From an uncultured Candidatus Actinomarina sp. (GTDB taxonomy: Bacteria > Actinomycetota > Acidimicrobiia > Actinomarinales > Actinomarinaceae): DNA of 55,087 nt. Shown piece by piece: positions 42,619 through 49,166 of this stretch. Each line of letters starts with the position of its first letter. The stretch's first letter is position 1. The DNA is taken from NCBI GenBank assembly GCA_902576605.1, contig CACGVI010000005.1, forward strand, positions 1 through 55,087, given 5' to 3'. Both the position numbers and the translations under genes were made by a program. The notes beneath the pieces are model-generated. The model saw only the letters and a program-made list of their open reading frames with translations. It did not search any database and was not told the origin of the DNA.

Positions 42619-42638
42619 GTAATGTTAGGCTAATAATT

Positions 42639-43094
42639 TTAAAATGGGGGCATATCGTCATCATCGTAATCCCTTCTATATCGCCAAGGTGGGATATTTA
42701 AATCGGTTTCTATACTTTTTAAAAAATCATTCATATTTGATTTTTTTATTTTTAATGCACTAAAGGTATTGATATTAAATTCTGGAAATTTTTCAACATT
42801 TGATAGTACAGTTTGTATTGCATCAGCATTCCCAGCTTCTACGTATAATTCAAGTTCTTTAAGTGCATCTAGTCTTAAATTCAACTGTCGAATATATAAA
42901 GAAAGTTCTTTAAGGTATATACTCGATAGAAGAGTTGAGTAAAAAACAGGATTTGTTGTCATCCAGTTGGTTACACTATTTGCTGATATATTAAGTTCAT
43001 CCAAGATATCTTCAACATCATTACCCGCTACAAATAGGTTTATAAAATGAGTTTGTTTTTCGCTTAGTTTGCCAAGCTTTTTTTTAGAATTCAT
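42639..43094 (-). CDS. putative helix-turn-helix protein (terminase-small-subunit-like HTH)
   Basis: LSEKQTHFINLFVAGNDVEDILDELNISANSVTNWM resembles an HTH; overlaps the upstream ORF by 11 bp. Confidence 0.55.
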   Translation of the reverse strand: MNSKKKLGKLSEKQTHFINLFVAGNDVEDILDELNISANSVTNWMTTNPVFYSTLLSSIYLKELSLYIRQLNLRLDALKELELYVEAGNADAIQTVLSNVEKFPEFNINTFSALKIKKSNMNDFLKSIETDLNIPPWRYRRDYDDDDMPPF

Positions 43095-43611
43095 TGAAAT
43101 CCTCCATACTCATTTCATCGGGAAGAGGTGGGGTTGTATTTAACTCTTTATACATTTCAGGTATCCAAGGCATAAGGTCTGGACATTGCGATGACACAGT
43201 AGAAACTAAATATTGATGATATTCAAATTGTTTTTTACTACTTTTTGAAATTGCATAAACACAAACATATAACCATGTAATCAGTGATACTGGAACACTT
43301 GTAGTTTGTTGTGTCGTCTTAATAAACACTCCAGGCCCCTCAAGTAGAAGATGAATTGGCATCCCATCAAAGGGGTGAATCATTACTCCATCATCTAACT
43401 TTTCAGCATTCAATTTTTTTTGTGTGTTTGTAAATAAAAAAATAAACAAAAATATTGAAACAAAATAGCTCGCAACTAAATTGCTTCTGTAAAGCCATGC
43501 AGAAGCAATTAAATATATATTTGTTATTGCTAATAAAAGCACTAAGTATATTTTTGAAAACTTATTATTTCGCATAAGCTTTGGTATTTGTGATTTAAAT
43601 TTAGACAACAT
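43084..43611 (-). CDS. membrane protein of unknown function
   Basis: N-terminal hydrophobic helices (YLVLLLAITNIYLIASAWLYRSNLVASYFVSIFLFIFLF); ATG directly abuts the stop of the HerA-like gene. Confidence 0.65.
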   Translation of the reverse strand: MLSKFKSQIPKLMRNNKFSKIYLVLLLAITNIYLIASAWLYRSNLVASYFVSIFLFIFLFTNTQKKLNAEKLDDGVMIHPFDGMPIHLLLEGPGVFIKTTQQTTSVPVSLITWLYVCVYAISKSSKKQFEYHQYLVSTVSSQCPDLMPWIPEMYKELNTTPPLPDEMSMEDFNEF

Positions 43612-45360
43612 TTAAAAATCCTCAACAGAAAATTCTATCAACATGCCTTTTCCATTTGGATCAATTGCAGACCTAAGTCCTAAAGCAAAAAATTGACAGC
43701 TAATCATTAGACCAGTTTTTTTATCTTCATCAAGTGGATCTAGTGTTTTGAGCTCTTTAAATGCTTCACTTGTTAAATTTTTTGATAATTGATTAATTAC
43801 TGACTGCTGTATTCCGTACCCTAAAAGTAGAATTTTGTTTTTAATTCTCTCAAAAATTTCACTATCAAGTTGCAGTGGATCCGGATTTACAAATGCAAAA
43901 CCTAAGCCTTTGGATCTGGCCCAATTATTCAGCAATTCTTTAATGCCTTTAATAGCGCTTTCCTGATATATATTTTCTGTTTTATTTGGAAAATACATAC
44001 CAGCCTCATCAGCAAAAAATAAAGCTTTTGTCTGTTTGAAATTAGAATCTGATAAAAGTTTCTTTTGGCGTTCAATCAATTTTGAAACTATAAGACTCAA
44101 ATGCTTTTCTTTTACCCACTCAGGGATAAAATTTTTACTTCCTGGATGGATAAAAATTATGGTATTTTTACCTGAGTTTTTTGTCTTGCTAGATTTCTTT
44201 GTCAAAAACTCGTCTATAATTTCTTCAATACTCCACTTTTTATCATTACTAGAGAAGTACTGTATTAATTTATTTAGATTATTTTGGATGGAACAGACTC
44301 TGTAGTTATCATTTAAAAGTTCTGTTACTTTTTCTTTAAATGCCTCCAGTGGTCTAGGATTCGAAACCCCAGCATATACTTGAGTAGCATATGTATCTTC
44401 TTCAAATTTTTGAAGGATAAATATTACGTCATCTCTTTGAACTTCAGAACCATTTTTTATTAATTCAGGTTTTTCTTTTAGTAAGATATCTAAGAAAACG
44501 TCAATGAATTTTGCTTTGTTTCCAATATTAAAAGTAGCTTTGTTATTAAAAGTATCATATGCTTTAGCCATTGCAACTAAATTTTCATGATTCAAATCTA
44601 AAATAATGTCATCAAAAATTGATAAATTATAAATTTCTCGATTGTTTTGATGCACTGTATCAATAAAGTTTTTACTAGAGGCAAGAGATTCACCATACAT
44701 TTGGGACTTTGGATCAATGCCTAGCAGATTGATATCAGTTCCAGAATAAATTTTCAGCAAATTCAATAGTACTGAACTCTTACCCTGACCCGTATCGGCA
44801 AATATACCAATATGCTTAGCAGAGTTATCGTGATTTGGTTTTAAAATCAGATTGTCATATCCACCTTTAATTTTTTTTGAGGGAATTCTTCCAAATTTTG
44901 AATAGTCTTCTAGGTTTAATGTAGATTCCAATTTTTCTATAAAATCTCCAGCATCAACAACTGCTTCACCTGGCAATATGGGTCTGGGTAATGCATTTAA
45001 CGACTTAACGCCATCAATTGGATCAGTCTCAATTACGTTGTATATTTTAAAATTTGCTTTGTAATATGTAGTTTCACGAATTTTTAGCTCTAACGCATAG
45101 CCATCAATATTTTCAATTTCATTCGATCTTGAACGTGTATATTCAATATATTCCTTGTTTCTATCTTCAACACCATTAATTGGCTCTAACCCTGTAACTA
45201 CACCAGCTACTAGATAGCTTGCCATAGTCTTAGGGTTTTGGATTTTAATTGCTAGCATTTCGCCTTCGCGAATAGATTCCCTGTTGTCTCCAGATACTGT
45301 TATGGGTACCTCCCATACATCTCCTCCAACATTTGTTTTAGCTATAATATTTTCTGACAT
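43612..45360 (-). CDS. HerA/FtsK-family DNA-translocase-like ATPase
   Basis: N-terminal barrel-like region, Walker A ADTGQGKSSVLLNLL, Walker B ALFFADEAGMYFP, downstream KGLGFAFVNPDPLQLDSEIFERIKNKILLLG typical of HerA. Confidence 0.82.
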   Translation of the reverse strand: MSENIIAKTNVGGDVWEVPITVSGDNRESIREGEMLAIKIQNPKTMASYLVAGVVTGLEPINGVEDRNKEYIEYTRSRSNEIENIDGYALELKIRETTYYKANFKIYNVIETDPIDGVKSLNALPRPILPGEAVVDAGDFIEKLESTLNLEDYSKFGRIPSKKIKGGYDNLILKPNHDNSAKHIGIFADTGQGKSSVLLNLLKIYSGTDINLLGIDPKSQMYGESLASSKNFIDTVHQNNREIYNLSIFDDIILDLNHENLVAMAKAYDTFNNKATFNIGNKAKFIDVFLDILLKEKPELIKNGSEVQRDDVIFILQKFEEDTYATQVYAGVSNPRPLEAFKEKVTELLNDNYRVCSIQNNLNKLIQYFSSNDKKWSIEEIIDEFLTKKSSKTKNSGKNTIIFIHPGSKNFIPEWVKEKHLSLIVSKLIERQKKLLSDSNFKQTKALFFADEAGMYFPNKTENIYQESAIKGIKELLNNWARSKGLGFAFVNPDPLQLDSEIFERIKNKILLLGYGIQQSVINQLSKNLTSEAFKELKTLDPLDEDKKTGLMISCQFFALGLRSAIDPNGKGMLIEFSVEDF

Positions 45361-45372
45361 TTTATCTCCTTT

Positions 45373-46437
45373 TCATGTCCTGACTCTAAATGGAAGATTA
45401 TGTAAAAAATCTTCCTGTTCCATTGCTATTTTTTCATCCAAGCTATTGAGCGAGAACCTACGCTTCATTTCACTTTTAGCAAAATCTTCTGCAAAAAATG
45501 TAGCATAAGGTTCTTTTTGAATACCCAACATTTCTATGGATAAAGCTTTAAATATTGATTGTTTTGATTTTTGAAATAACTTGTTGTTTAAATATTCAAC
45601 TTTTAAAGGACTGTCGTTTGTGTCAAACTTAAGGATTTCACCCTTATATATATTTTTAGAGAAATTTAACAACCTTTCATATTGATCTATGTAATCAGCT
45701 GCATTGCTATCAAAAGCTCTTAATGAAGAGAGCCTCGTAAGCATTTGGTCTTGATGTATTTTCTCAATAAAGGATTCATTAGAATGCAATACAACACCAA
45801 AAACTCTCTTTGGAATCAATTGATTATAGTCTTTTTTAAATTCATCTAGAATAATTTTCAAATCATATGAAAAAAAATCCTTAACAACATAACAAACTGT
45901 ATTTGTCATTAAATTATCAACTAAAGTTTTAAACTCAGACGCATCGAATCGATCACAAAGTTCTGGAAAAATTTCAACAAGGTTTTTAATATCTTTAAGA
46001 ATTGCCCAGAATGGTCCATCTACAATTATCAAATCATCGTCTTGAGTATTTTTGCAAGTTTCATTAATAGCTTGGAATTCAAGTAGCCTCATTTGCAAGA
46101 GATCTTTTTCTAAATTTGTAGACCAGATTGTGTCAGATTTTGCAAAATCGTACTGATGCCGTCCTTCAAGAATTACACCTGTTGTTGAAGCACATGCTAT
46201 AACTTTGTATTTGTATTCTCCACTTACATCATTTATTTCAGATAGTGTGCCATCAATTCCAAAGGTTCTTGGTGATGGCACAACTATCTTTTCCCCTTGC
46301 CCTATAGGGGTAAGGGTCCCAGGGTTATTTCTTAAAATATATTCTCTTAATCGCATCCTATCTTTAGCTAAATTTGTTCTTAACTTATAGTCGTTTATTG
46401 ATAGAGAGCTAATTGAGTTCTCTGTAGTTTTACTCAT
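45373..46437 (-). CDS. NurA-like nuclease
   Basis: TFGIDGTLSEI and later LIIVDGPFWAI (two DG motifs of NurA), conserved E in the intervening helix, C-terminal KEPYATFFAEDFAKSEMK; immediately upstream of the HerA-like gene; start taken at MSKTTENS. Confidence 0.65.
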   Translation of the reverse strand: MSKTTENSISSLSINDYKLRTNLAKDRMRLREYILRNNPGTLTPIGQGEKIVVPSPRTFGIDGTLSEINDVSGEYKYKVIACASTTGVILEGRHQYDFAKSDTIWSTNLEKDLLQMRLLEFQAINETCKNTQDDDLIIVDGPFWAILKDIKNLVEIFPELCDRFDASEFKTLVDNLMTNTVCYVVKDFFSYDLKIILDEFKKDYNQLIPKRVFGVVLHSNESFIEKIHQDQMLTRLSSLRAFDSNAADYIDQYERLLNFSKNIYKGEILKFDTNDSPLKVEYLNNKLFQKSKQSIFKALSIEMLGIQKEPYATFFAEDFAKSEMKRRFSLNSLDEKIAMEQEDFLHNLPFRVRT

Positions 46438-46582
46438 AAGACTGTTCCAAAATATTTTCAAATCCCTGCTCAGTTATTAGATTTTCTAATTCAGTAAGCC
46501 GAAGGTCAAGAGCGGTTGTTTCACTCTGAAGGTAATCTAAGATTTTCACAATCATTGATATCTTTTTAAACAACTTATACAT
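46430..46582 (-). CDS. 50-aa small protein MYKLFKKISMIVKILDYLQSETTALDLRLTELENLITEQGFENILEQSYE
   Basis: Read from sequence; below the ORF-track cutoff; coiled-coil-like; overlaps the start of the NurA-like gene by 8 bp and the end of the upstream ORF. Confidence 0.5.
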   Translation of the reverse strand: MYKLFKKISMIVKILDYLQSETTALDLRLTELENLITEQGFENILEQSYE

Positions 46583-46967
46583 TTGTAGGTCCTTCTTCAG
46601 TGGAACTTTCTTCTAAAACATACTTAAAAATTTGTGCTTCATTCATCATTGGAGCAACAGCAACTAAGAAGTTCCCAGTGTCATCTTCCACAACAAAATT
46701 TTGTTTTGTTTTTGGGTCAACTTCTTTTATAAATATTTGATCCGGATCTAATGAATGAAATTCATCCTTTGATGCAATTTCTCCAAATAAAACACAGCCG
46801 TCATCATCTGTAAAAACCAATTGATCTCCTTCTGCAAAGTGACCTTTTAGTTGACCAGTTTTATACCTTCTTAATACTTCCGTATTGATTATTTGGCACA
46901 ATTGATACAATTTTGAGTTTGTTGTATTAGATATGCTTTCTTTAATTGTTGTTAAAACTTCTTCCAT
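46575..46967 (-). CDS. protein of unknown function
   Basis: 130-aa ORF with SD (AAGGAGAATAAAAATG) inside the stop region of the upstream gene; acidic. Confidence 0.6.
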   Translation of the reverse strand: MEEVLTTIKESISNTTNSKLYQLCQIINTEVLRRYKTGQLKGHFAEGDQLVFTDDDGCVLFGEIASKDEFHSLDPDQIFIKEVDPKTKQNFVVEDDTGNFLVAVAPMMNEAQIFKYVLEESSTEEGPTNV

Positions 46968-46969
46968 TT

Positions 46970-47158
46970 TTATTCTCCTTGAGTTCTATTGATATGTCCA
47001 CGTATCCTTGGGAAGGAAACTGGTGTGTGTAAAAAGCAATATTTTTTTTTGTTGTAAATCGATAGTTGCGTAAGGCAGTATTGCTCTGCACAAAATCTAC
47101 CGCTAACATATTGCTTCGACTTGCGTCTGTTACTCGTTCCGAGTCTTTTTCCATTCAT
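46970..47158 (-). CDS. small zinc-ribbon-like protein
   Basis: 62 aa; RFCAEQYCLTQLSIYNKKKYCFLH (C-x4-C-x12-C-x2-H) resembling the CxxCGTxLSxYNxxxxCxxH short zinc-binding motif; SD GGAGAA upstream; preferred over the overlapping 46942..47154 ORF. Confidence 0.55.
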   Translation of the reverse strand: MNGKRLGTSNRRKSKQYVSGRFCAEQYCLTQLSIYNKKKYCFLHTPVSFPRIRGHINRTQGE

Positions 47159-47199
47159 TCGAAATTCTCCTAAATTAAATAACTATTAATAACTATTTT

Positions 47200-47261
47200 T
47201 GAGCAGAGTGAGCAGAGTGAGCAGAGTGAGCAGAGTGAGCAGAGTGAGCAGAGTGAGCAGA
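47200..47261. repeat. tandem array: 7 exact copies of TGAGCAGA at 9-bp spacing (unit GAGCAGAGT)
   Basis: TGAGCAGA begins at 47200, 47209, 47218, 47227, 47236, 47245, 47254. Confidence 0.97.
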
Positions 47262-47270
47262 AAACATACC

Positions 47271-47311
47271 TTGGTAGTGCAAACCGTCTGCTCATTGGTA
47301 AGCACTACCAA
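47271..47311. promoter_or_regulatory. 10-bp perfect inverted repeat TTGGTAGTGC/GCACTACCAA; 21-nt loop contains an inverted copy of the array core (TCTGCTCA)
   Basis: Arms 47271-47280 and 47302-47311; TCTGCTCA at 47287-47294; alternative hairpin TTGGTA-AGCAC-TACCAA at 47295-47311. Confidence 0.85.
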
Positions 47312-47387
47312 AAGTAATAATCTATTTATAACAGATATAAAAATTAATGCGCGCTTATTTTATAAGAATTTGATAATTTTTATAAAT

Positions 47388-47416
47388 TTAGCAAAATCGT
47401 CGGTACAATATATAAT
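47388..47416 (+). promoter_or_regulatory. sigma70-like promoter TTAGCA-17-TATAAT for the 414-aa ORF
   Basis: TATAAT at 47411-47416, ATG at 47428, implying a very short or absent leader. Confidence 0.5.
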
Positions 47417-47427
47417 AGTTAGTAACA

Positions 47428-48672
47428 ATGACAAAAATTAAAACTTTAGAAGAAATTAAATATCTGTTGGTTAGTGATTTTGGAATCAAAAATATTTCTG
47501 GCAGACCTATATTGACTACCAATTCAGAAGATATATCAGGCATTCTAGGAAGTGCCCTCCCCTCTATTTATTATCGTGTCGAAATTGAGTACGAAAATTA
47601 TAAAAATAATGCATATGTTATTTTTTCTTTAGCTTTGGATCCAATTAAAAATACTGAACTATATTCATATAATGAAAATACAATTAAAATTCTCAATTAT
47701 TCACAAAATCCTGGAAGATCACCTTCATCTCCTGAATTCAAAATTGAGTTAAGAGAAAATAATATTGATCAAAGTTTTGAAGTAGCCTACAGACAGTTTC
47801 ATAAAAATTTAGAAAATGATGAATTTGAAAATATTTTTTTAGATAAAGAATTAAAAACTCTGAAATTAGCTTTTTCTGATCTGGAAACAATACTGAATAA
47901 AACTAAAAAAGAAAGAAATAATCTAGTTCAACAAGTAAATGTAGAAAATGAGCTAAAGACATTTTCATTAGATCCTCAAATGTTTAATGACTTTAACATT
48001 TTAGATTTGCAAAAAACATGTACCCTTTTTCTTGAAGCTAGGTATGGTGCACTACATAAATTAAAAGAAGATAATTCAGATATTCAGACACTAGAAGTTA
48101 TTGATTGGCAACAACTTTATAATACTTACACTACAAAAAATATTGCTCTTTCCTATCTAAACAAAATAAACGATGCTGAATCTTTCAAAATAAATGATGA
48201 ATTTTTAATATCTATTTATTTCACAATAATCAAAGACTTGAATGGCATAGAGCAGAAAATATTTACTAAGGCATTAAAAAATTTAAATATTGAGCCAAGC
48301 ATTTTAGAAAGTAGCCTATATAAAGCAATTGATAGAATGAAAAAAATTCAAAATGAAGAATATCAAAAACGACAAAAGTTGAAATCGTCAATTGGCGAAG
48401 CTCCAAGGAAAAGAGAGTATAAAATTGAAATTAATTCTGCGACAAATCCAAAATTAAACAAAACAAGGGACGCCCTTTTATATATTGAAGTTTTACTGCG
48501 GTTAATATCCAAAAACAATACTATGAATCAAGATCTTCTTTTGCAAAGATCTTTAGACATGTATCTTAGAACTAAATTTGCAAGGTTTAAACAAGATGGG
48601 TATATAAATAATTCAAAAAATGGTCCTCGGTACACTCTTGAAAGCAAAGGTCGAAATCTTCTAACTAAATAA
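47428..48672 (+). CDS. protein of unknown function, possible C-terminal winged-helix
   Basis: 414-aa ORF with good coding character; coiled middle region; C-terminal LLLQRSLDMYLRTKFARFKQDGYINNSKNGPRYTLESKGRNLL resembles a winged helix. Confidence 0.7.
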   Translation: MTKIKTLEEIKYLLVSDFGIKNISGRPILTTNSEDISGILGSALPSIYYRVEIEYENYKNNAYVIFSLALDPIKNTELYSYNENTIKILNYSQNPGRSPSSPEFKIELRENNIDQSFEVAYRQFHKNLENDEFENIFLDKELKTLKLAFSDLETILNKTKKERNNLVQQVNVENELKTFSLDPQMFNDFNILDLQKTCTLFLEARYGALHKLKEDNSDIQTLEVIDWQQLYNTYTTKNIALSYLNKINDAESFKINDEFLISIYFTIIKDLNGIEQKIFTKALKNLNIEPSILESSLYKAIDRMKKIQNEEYQKRQKLKSSIGEAPRKREYKIEINSATNPKLNKTRDALLYIEVLLRLISKNNTMNQDLLLQRSLDMYLRTKFARFKQDGYINNSKNGPRYTLESKGRNLLTK

Positions 48673-48886
48673 AATCTAATATCTCAAGATACATATTAAG
48701 ACTAGGTTTTATTTTAATACTTTTAAGGCTGAGAGATTTAACTTTATTTTCATTCGTAGAAATAATTTCTAAAATTACTTCTTCATTTCCAGGATAATTA
48801 TTAAATACGTTTCTTAATTTATACAAACTTTCTTTATTTAATTTATACTCTTCAAACCTTATGATAAAAGCATTGGGATCTGTCAT
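48665..48886 (-). CDS. standalone segment resembling the extreme C-terminus of DNA polymerase III alpha (DnaE)
   Basis: LYKLRNVFNNYPGNEEVILEI..LKSIKIKPSLNMYLEILDFI resembles the LKEVLxxHPGxTEVxLxL..xRVxPSPxLxxxLKxLLG tail of actinobacterial DnaE1. Confidence 0.45.
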   Translation of the reverse strand: MTDPNAFIIRFEEYKLNKESLYKLRNVFNNYPGNEEVILEIISTNENKVKSLSLKSIKIKPSLNMYLEILDFI

Positions 48887-48890
48887 GGTT

Positions 48891-49133
48891 CTACCAAAGA
48901 GGTCCGAAAAGACGAGAATATAAAATATATAGTGAATTTTTTTCTACTTCAACCATTTGTTTCCAAAACTTTATATTTTCATTAGAGTAAATTGCACTAG
49001 CTTCATCCTCTGACATACCAGAATCAATATTTCTTATATAATTTTCCTGTGGTTCAGTAATACCAACTTCTAATAAGTCTTTAAGGGCTTTTTGGATAAT
49101 ATTTAATTCTTGTTGATTTAACTCATATTGCAT
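48891..49133 (-). CDS. small protein of unknown function
   Basis: 80-aa ORF ending 4 nt before the start of the next minus-strand ORF. Confidence 0.5.
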   Translation of the reverse strand: MQYELNQQELNIIQKALKDLLEVGITEPQENYIRNIDSGMSEDEASAIYSNENIKFWKQMVEVEKNSLYILYSRLFGPLW

Positions 49134-49166
49134 ATATGCAATATTAAAAAAAGACTATGACAAAAT

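Follow-up and report, generated by a model that had tools for sequence, protein, structure and literature searches.

Between two divergent genes of an uncultured Candidatus Actinomarina sp., a short word is repeated seven times in tandem and once more, inverted, in a neighbouring hairpin, and the question was whether this arrangement is a control element or a by-product of replication slippage. We analysed the whole stretch of 55,087 nucleotides in which it lies (the window), and we tentatively prefer to read the array and the hairpin as a cis-acting control element in a divergent promoter/leader region, with a DNA operator as its most likely form.

The array consists of seven copies of TGAGCAGA(G) with a 9-bp period and zero mismatches, just as a preliminary description of this DNA had reported, and TRF recovered it with 6.9 copies, 100% matches and a score of 124. 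In the whole window TGAGCAGA was counted 11 times where 1.8 were expected, and 0 of 100 shuffles gave as many. In 708 kb of the 758-kb genome no other non-coding tandem array scored above 53; the remaining strong arrays lie inside open frames, the non-coding share is small (38 of 708 kb outside frames of at least 100 codons), and the unit was not found as an array elsewhere in the genome. The repeats had also been called "phased", which holds for their regular spacing but not in the helical sense, because 9 bp is not the helical repeat. A CRISPR array was ruled out by anatomy, as the 9-bp copies are contiguous and have no unique spacers, and an 80-aa ORF (TTG start) running through the array on the plus strand was rejected as a gene for its overlap with the p414 start and its lack of a ribosome-binding site. 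A DNA search with the intergenic region across the genus gave a single other match, within a coding region of G061, which was taken as chance, and the exact array and hairpin patterns gave no match in viral contigs.

The perfect 10-bp arms of the hairpin enclose a loop of 21 nt with the exact reverse complement of TGAGCAGA inside it, and both of these earlier claims were borne out by the sequence. RNA folding placed an inner ACC(G)/(U)GGU stem past a 2x2 internal loop, which shortens the apical loop to 9 nt in the plus-strand RNA (UCUGCUCAU) and 11 nt in the minus-strand RNA, and this apical loop is almost wholly the 8-mer complementary to the repeats. The genome has about 27 comparable perfect hairpins, and the probability of a loop containing the complementary 8-mer was approximately 0.002, which is an after-the-fact figure, as is the range of 0.3% (shuffles) to 3% (window word rate) for any array 8-mer anywhere in the flanks. 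With a chance probability of about 0.2%, the match between loop and repeats is suggestive but not overwhelming. Folding of both strands, proposed earlier as a check on a transcribed RNA, showed that the hairpin alone is very stable compared with shuffles (z about −4.9 for plus and −4.8 for minus), but the complete 131-nt region was unexceptional as RNA (z −1.2 to −1.6). An Rfam search of the element gave no credible match.

Table 1 Features of the array region and of the island around it (positions in the window unless a locus is named)
Feature	Positions	Strand	Basis
Direct-repeat array, seven perfect TGAGCAGA(G) copies, period 9 bp	47200..47261	+	sequence, TRF
Hairpin with perfect arms of 10 bp (47271-47280/47302-47311), an inner stem of 3-4 bp and an apical loop of 9-11 nt	47271..47311		sequence, folding
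Inverted eighth TGAGCAGA copy in hairpin loop	47287..47294	-	exact reverse complement; loop P ~0.002 (after the fact)
Possible 41-aa uORF, ATG in hairpin loop, array as Cys-Ser-Leu repeats	47170..47295	-	18% of shuffles
Candidate p62-operon promoter TTGTCA-16-TATATT	47407..47434	-	consensus match only
Candidate p414 promoter TTAGCA-17-TATAAT, downstream of array	47388..47416	+	consensus match only
Accessory island, 6.5 kb, between ubiE and dsbA	42619..49166		congener comparison
HTH protein (HTH151), small-terminase-like, acidic DDDDMPPF tail	42639..43094	-	fold and sequence
Predicted membrane protein (TM), conserved in G060	43084..43611	-	sequence comparison
HerA-like ATPase	43612..45360	-	Pfam E=0.023, sub-threshold; other models; homologue
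NurA-like nuclease (tentative)	45373..46461	-	Pfam E=0.019, below cut-off; G060 homologue
p50, small ORF, counterpart by position of p120 in G060 island	46430..46582	-	gene order
p130, counterpart by position of p137 in G060 island	46575..46967	-	gene order
p62, zinc-ribbon-like protein, genus-wide family, first operon gene	46970..47158	-	sequence
p414, divergent gene; relative in G034 only, unrelated gene in G060	47428..48672	+	sequence comparison
p73, conserved in G034 island	48665..48886	-	sequence comparison
p80, conserved in all three islands	48891..49133	-	sequence comparison
Islands compared	window 42619-49166; L064 12121-19906; L037 and L038		two different chromosomal sites

The array occupies a gap of 269 bp between the minus-strand run p62-p130-p50-NurA-HerA-TM-HTH and p414, and the ORF layout thus agreed with the reported placement between a HerA-NurA operon and a divergent 414-aa gene. 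Candidate promoters were found on both strands, with 3.3 such matches expected in this AT-rich DNA. If the minus-strand candidate is used, the hairpin and the array fall in the leader of the p62 operon, while the p414 candidate lies downstream of the array, so p414 transcripts from there would lack it. Position and anatomy fit a control region between divergent transcripts.

For the operator reading, a DNA-binding protein would fill the seven contiguous 9-bp sites cooperatively, possibly along with the eighth, inverted site of the hairpin, and occupancy would set the expression of the p62-p130-NurA-HerA operon and/or p414. The direction of transcription, the protein binding and the regulation are what we infer here. 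Its starting point is observed (the repeat, the hairpin, the uniqueness in the genome and the island context), and it is supported by a perfect array between divergent genes with candidate promoters beside it, by the rank of the array as sole strong one in the little non-coding DNA of this genome, by the exact placement of the eighth copy within the loop of a stable hairpin and by at least one predicted DNA-binding protein encoded in the island. On the other side, the 9-bp spacing does not put the sites on one DNA face, perfectly identical copies also fit a recent slippage expansion, and the array is known from one genome only, with no conserved binder evident.

Two published systems provide precedents for an operator. 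The parS sites of pSM19035 are 7–10 contiguous non-palindromic 7-bp repeats overlapping promoters, in which a single repeat is bound weakly and adjacent repeats tightly, and omega, the protein that binds them, is of the ribbon-helix-helix type, with structures on both direct and inverted repeats cited in the same paper (PMC9499535). Our array is also made of contiguous short repeats in a candidate promoter region, but its unit is 9 bp instead of 7 bp and its eighth copy is in a hairpin loop, whereas the pSM19035 repeats accompany the partition genes of a plasmid, that of ParA included; here neither ParA nor a ribbon-helix-helix protein was recognised. In Mollicutes, short direct repeats at the promoter of a restriction-modification operon are bound by the controller protein HsdC (PMC5282649). 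This case is similar in its reduced genomes and in having short direct repeats at a defence-operon promoter, but there two or three spaced repeats have a proven binder, and here seven contiguous copies have putative ones. What the locus shares with such operators is tandem short repeats in an intergenic control region, whose promoters are consensus matches only.

The array was then compared with related islands. In the 26 congener loci showing both genes, ubiE and dsbA are adjacent, from a few to about 110 bp apart. Searched with a profile of the HTH protein, 42 congeners yielded the island three times and at two sites, in agreement with a HerA profile, and nothing beyond these three islands was found with the HTH profile over 395 genomes of the class; the matching congener records carry the name OCS155 cluster bacterium, which we take to mean Actinomarina-type marine actinobacteria. 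In G034 this island again lies between ubiE and dsbA, with contigs that end within p414 and shortly beyond the HTH gene, so that the array region is missing from the assembly. A homologous but divergent island of identical gene order is found in G060 at another site, beside rpiB (identity 45% for HTH, 27% for HerA, 22–25% for NurA, 54% for p62 and 45% for p80), and it has an unrelated divergent gene of 504 aa in the place of p414. The 166-bp intergenic region of G060, the only fully assembled homologous island, contains no TGAGCAGA, comparable tandem array or hairpin, which means that the array unit is not conserved upstream of the homologous operon in this one comparison. Homologous loci without repeat and hairpin had been named beforehand as evidence against a functional element, and G060 is in part such a case (n = 1). 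Thus, the conserved HerA-NurA machinery does not include the element, which at most may belong to p414-type islands, with one array-positive and one array-negative island compared.

Its absence from G060 also favours a near-neutral minisatellite, in which replication slippage recently multiplied a 9-bp word in a poorly constrained spacer beside an ordinary hairpin; template switching at the hairpin perhaps seeded the amplification, with the loop match as a coincidence or as the source copy. The perfect identity of the copies, which suggests a young array, the lack of reuse of the unit as an array elsewhere, the after-the-fact loop match (0.3–3% once the flanks are counted) and the empty Rfam search all point the same way, but such a minisatellite would have to be the sole such non-coding array of a highly streamlined genome, with its complement exactly within an apical loop. 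We consider this explanation doubtful, though almost as likely as the operator, with a leader RNA next. The element is real, unusual and locally unique, and it is probably a local control element; because of the single occurrence and the negative homologue, confidence in its function is low. If it does regulate, one of the most streamlined marine bacteria would have in it a compact means of switching a nuclease operon, possibly tunable by copy number.

As a leader RNA, the element would be part of the minus-strand 5' leader of the p62-HerA operon, where one UCUGCUCA copy of the seven pairs with the loop UGAGCAGA, or the copies titrate it, so that translation or stability is changed. The minus-strand promoter candidate is upstream of the hairpin and array, the loop and most array bases are predicted to be unpaired, the predicted loop-array duplex has −13.5 kcal/mol on the minus strand (−16.4 on the plus strand), and the hairpin has the low z score given above. 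But the promoter is a consensus match of a kind expected 3.3 times, the whole region is not unusually structured, and the element is absent in G060, so we regard a leader RNA as unlikely. A self-titrating version, in which one loop competes for seven repeats and a slippage-variable copy number tunes the nuclease operon, is very improbable.

The minus-strand leader could also be translated, since a 41-codon uORF exists there whose seven Cys-Ser-Leu units would couple p62 translation to the supply of cysteine (or leucine) and whose stop falls in the p62 Shine-Dalgarno. Cysteine-rich leader uORFs have been proposed as attenuators in mycobacteria (PMC4633059), and ours is likewise short, rich in Cys codons and placed upstream of an operon, but it is neither statistically supported (18% of shuffled flanks yield such an ORF) nor conserved, as G060 has no array or comparable uORF. 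Its ATG has no preceding Shine-Dalgarno, and its codons uncommon in host genes, CTC (4%) and TGC (24%), would confer sensitivity but also speak against coding selection. The chance of a leader peptide is slimmer still. The plus-strand array is rich in GAG triplets and stands next to a stem-loop, and leader sites of TRAP (MtrB) carry GAG/UAG triplets; here, however, the triplet spacing alternates between 1 and 2 nt, and a TRAP-regulated leader was dropped with no TRAP (PF02081) gene in the genome (63% complete).

In plasmids, both iteron origins and the double-strand origins of rolling-circle replication have direct repeats beside a hairpin. The array with its adjoining hairpin resembles them, and with a small-terminase-like HTH protein in the island it could be a replication, packaging or transfer site for an island initiator, relaxase or terminase-like protein. 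But iterons are usually longer than this unit, and the island is chromosomal. No replication initiator family was found among the island proteins, which speaks against an iteron origin, no Rep, relaxase, integrase or large terminase was recognised among them, and the element is absent from G060, which retains the HTH protein. We rate this as the least likely of all the readings.

Returning to the operator, the candidate binders are HTH151, p62 and p414, all putative. The preliminary description had proposed the HTH or the Zn-ribbon protein, but the G060 island keeps homologues of both without the array, so both are disfavoured as obligate binders. This genome (G000) and G060 differ in the divergent gene, which leaves a p414 link as the better surviving version (n = 2), and p414 or a p414-linked function would fit this tiny comparative set better than p62 or the HTH protein. 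p414 had no family match, and its structure prediction without relatives gave a pLDDT of 37. The structure model of HTH151 was good only for about residues 11–60 (the helix-turn-helix), and this N-terminal part weakly resembles phage small-terminase/phBC6A51 proteins in fold comparisons, with the phage protein phBC6A51 as the best PDB match (E 0.39). Its relatives have C-terminal tails (DDDNNSPPF and DDDDNSPPF) similar to its own, and in all three islands these recall the acidic tip of SSB, which recruits DNA-processing enzymes.

The island is a more promising object than the array. It looks like an undescribed accessory module of HerA-like, NurA-like, HTH and membrane proteins, p62, p80 and a swappable divergent gene. 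The HerA label given earlier is sub-threshold in Pfam and is supported further by several other models and the homologue, and the NurA label, with a sub-threshold Pfam match only, less so; the NurA-like protein had no match among PDB sequences. No relatives of HerA, HTH, p80 or p414 were found in viral contigs, nor of HerA and p414 in phage and plasmid records; in the genome contigs collection a HerA search found none, and an HTH search matched the G034 and G060 records alone. A survey of the Actinomarina order reported that CRISPR and toxin-antitoxin systems are lacking and that mobile elements are nearly so (PMC7771536). The HerA-NurA island is rare and mobile, with a possible anti-phage role, and is noteworthy independently of the array.

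In G010 (L116 9605-12651), a p80 relative has a cytosine methyltransferase in its neighbourhood, and the 332-aa protein next to the methyltransferase is likely the matching restriction enzyme, which hints that p80 moves together with genes for defence. At the island edge in G060 (L064 12121-13302) and G034 (L036 2111-3136) there is a gene for a putative secreted lipoprotein, and this gene is absent from the island of the window. Genes of the p62 zinc-ribbon family occur directly upstream of dnaK genus-wide and, at a further locus, close to a metal-ATPase gene (L042-L052, L053-L062), and the promoters at these loci have palindromes and no such repeat array. The p62-family gene upstream of dnaK has a conserved AATCTAAGTA/TACTTAGATT palindrome, and a second paralogue carries TTGTGAATATATTCACAA in its promoter.
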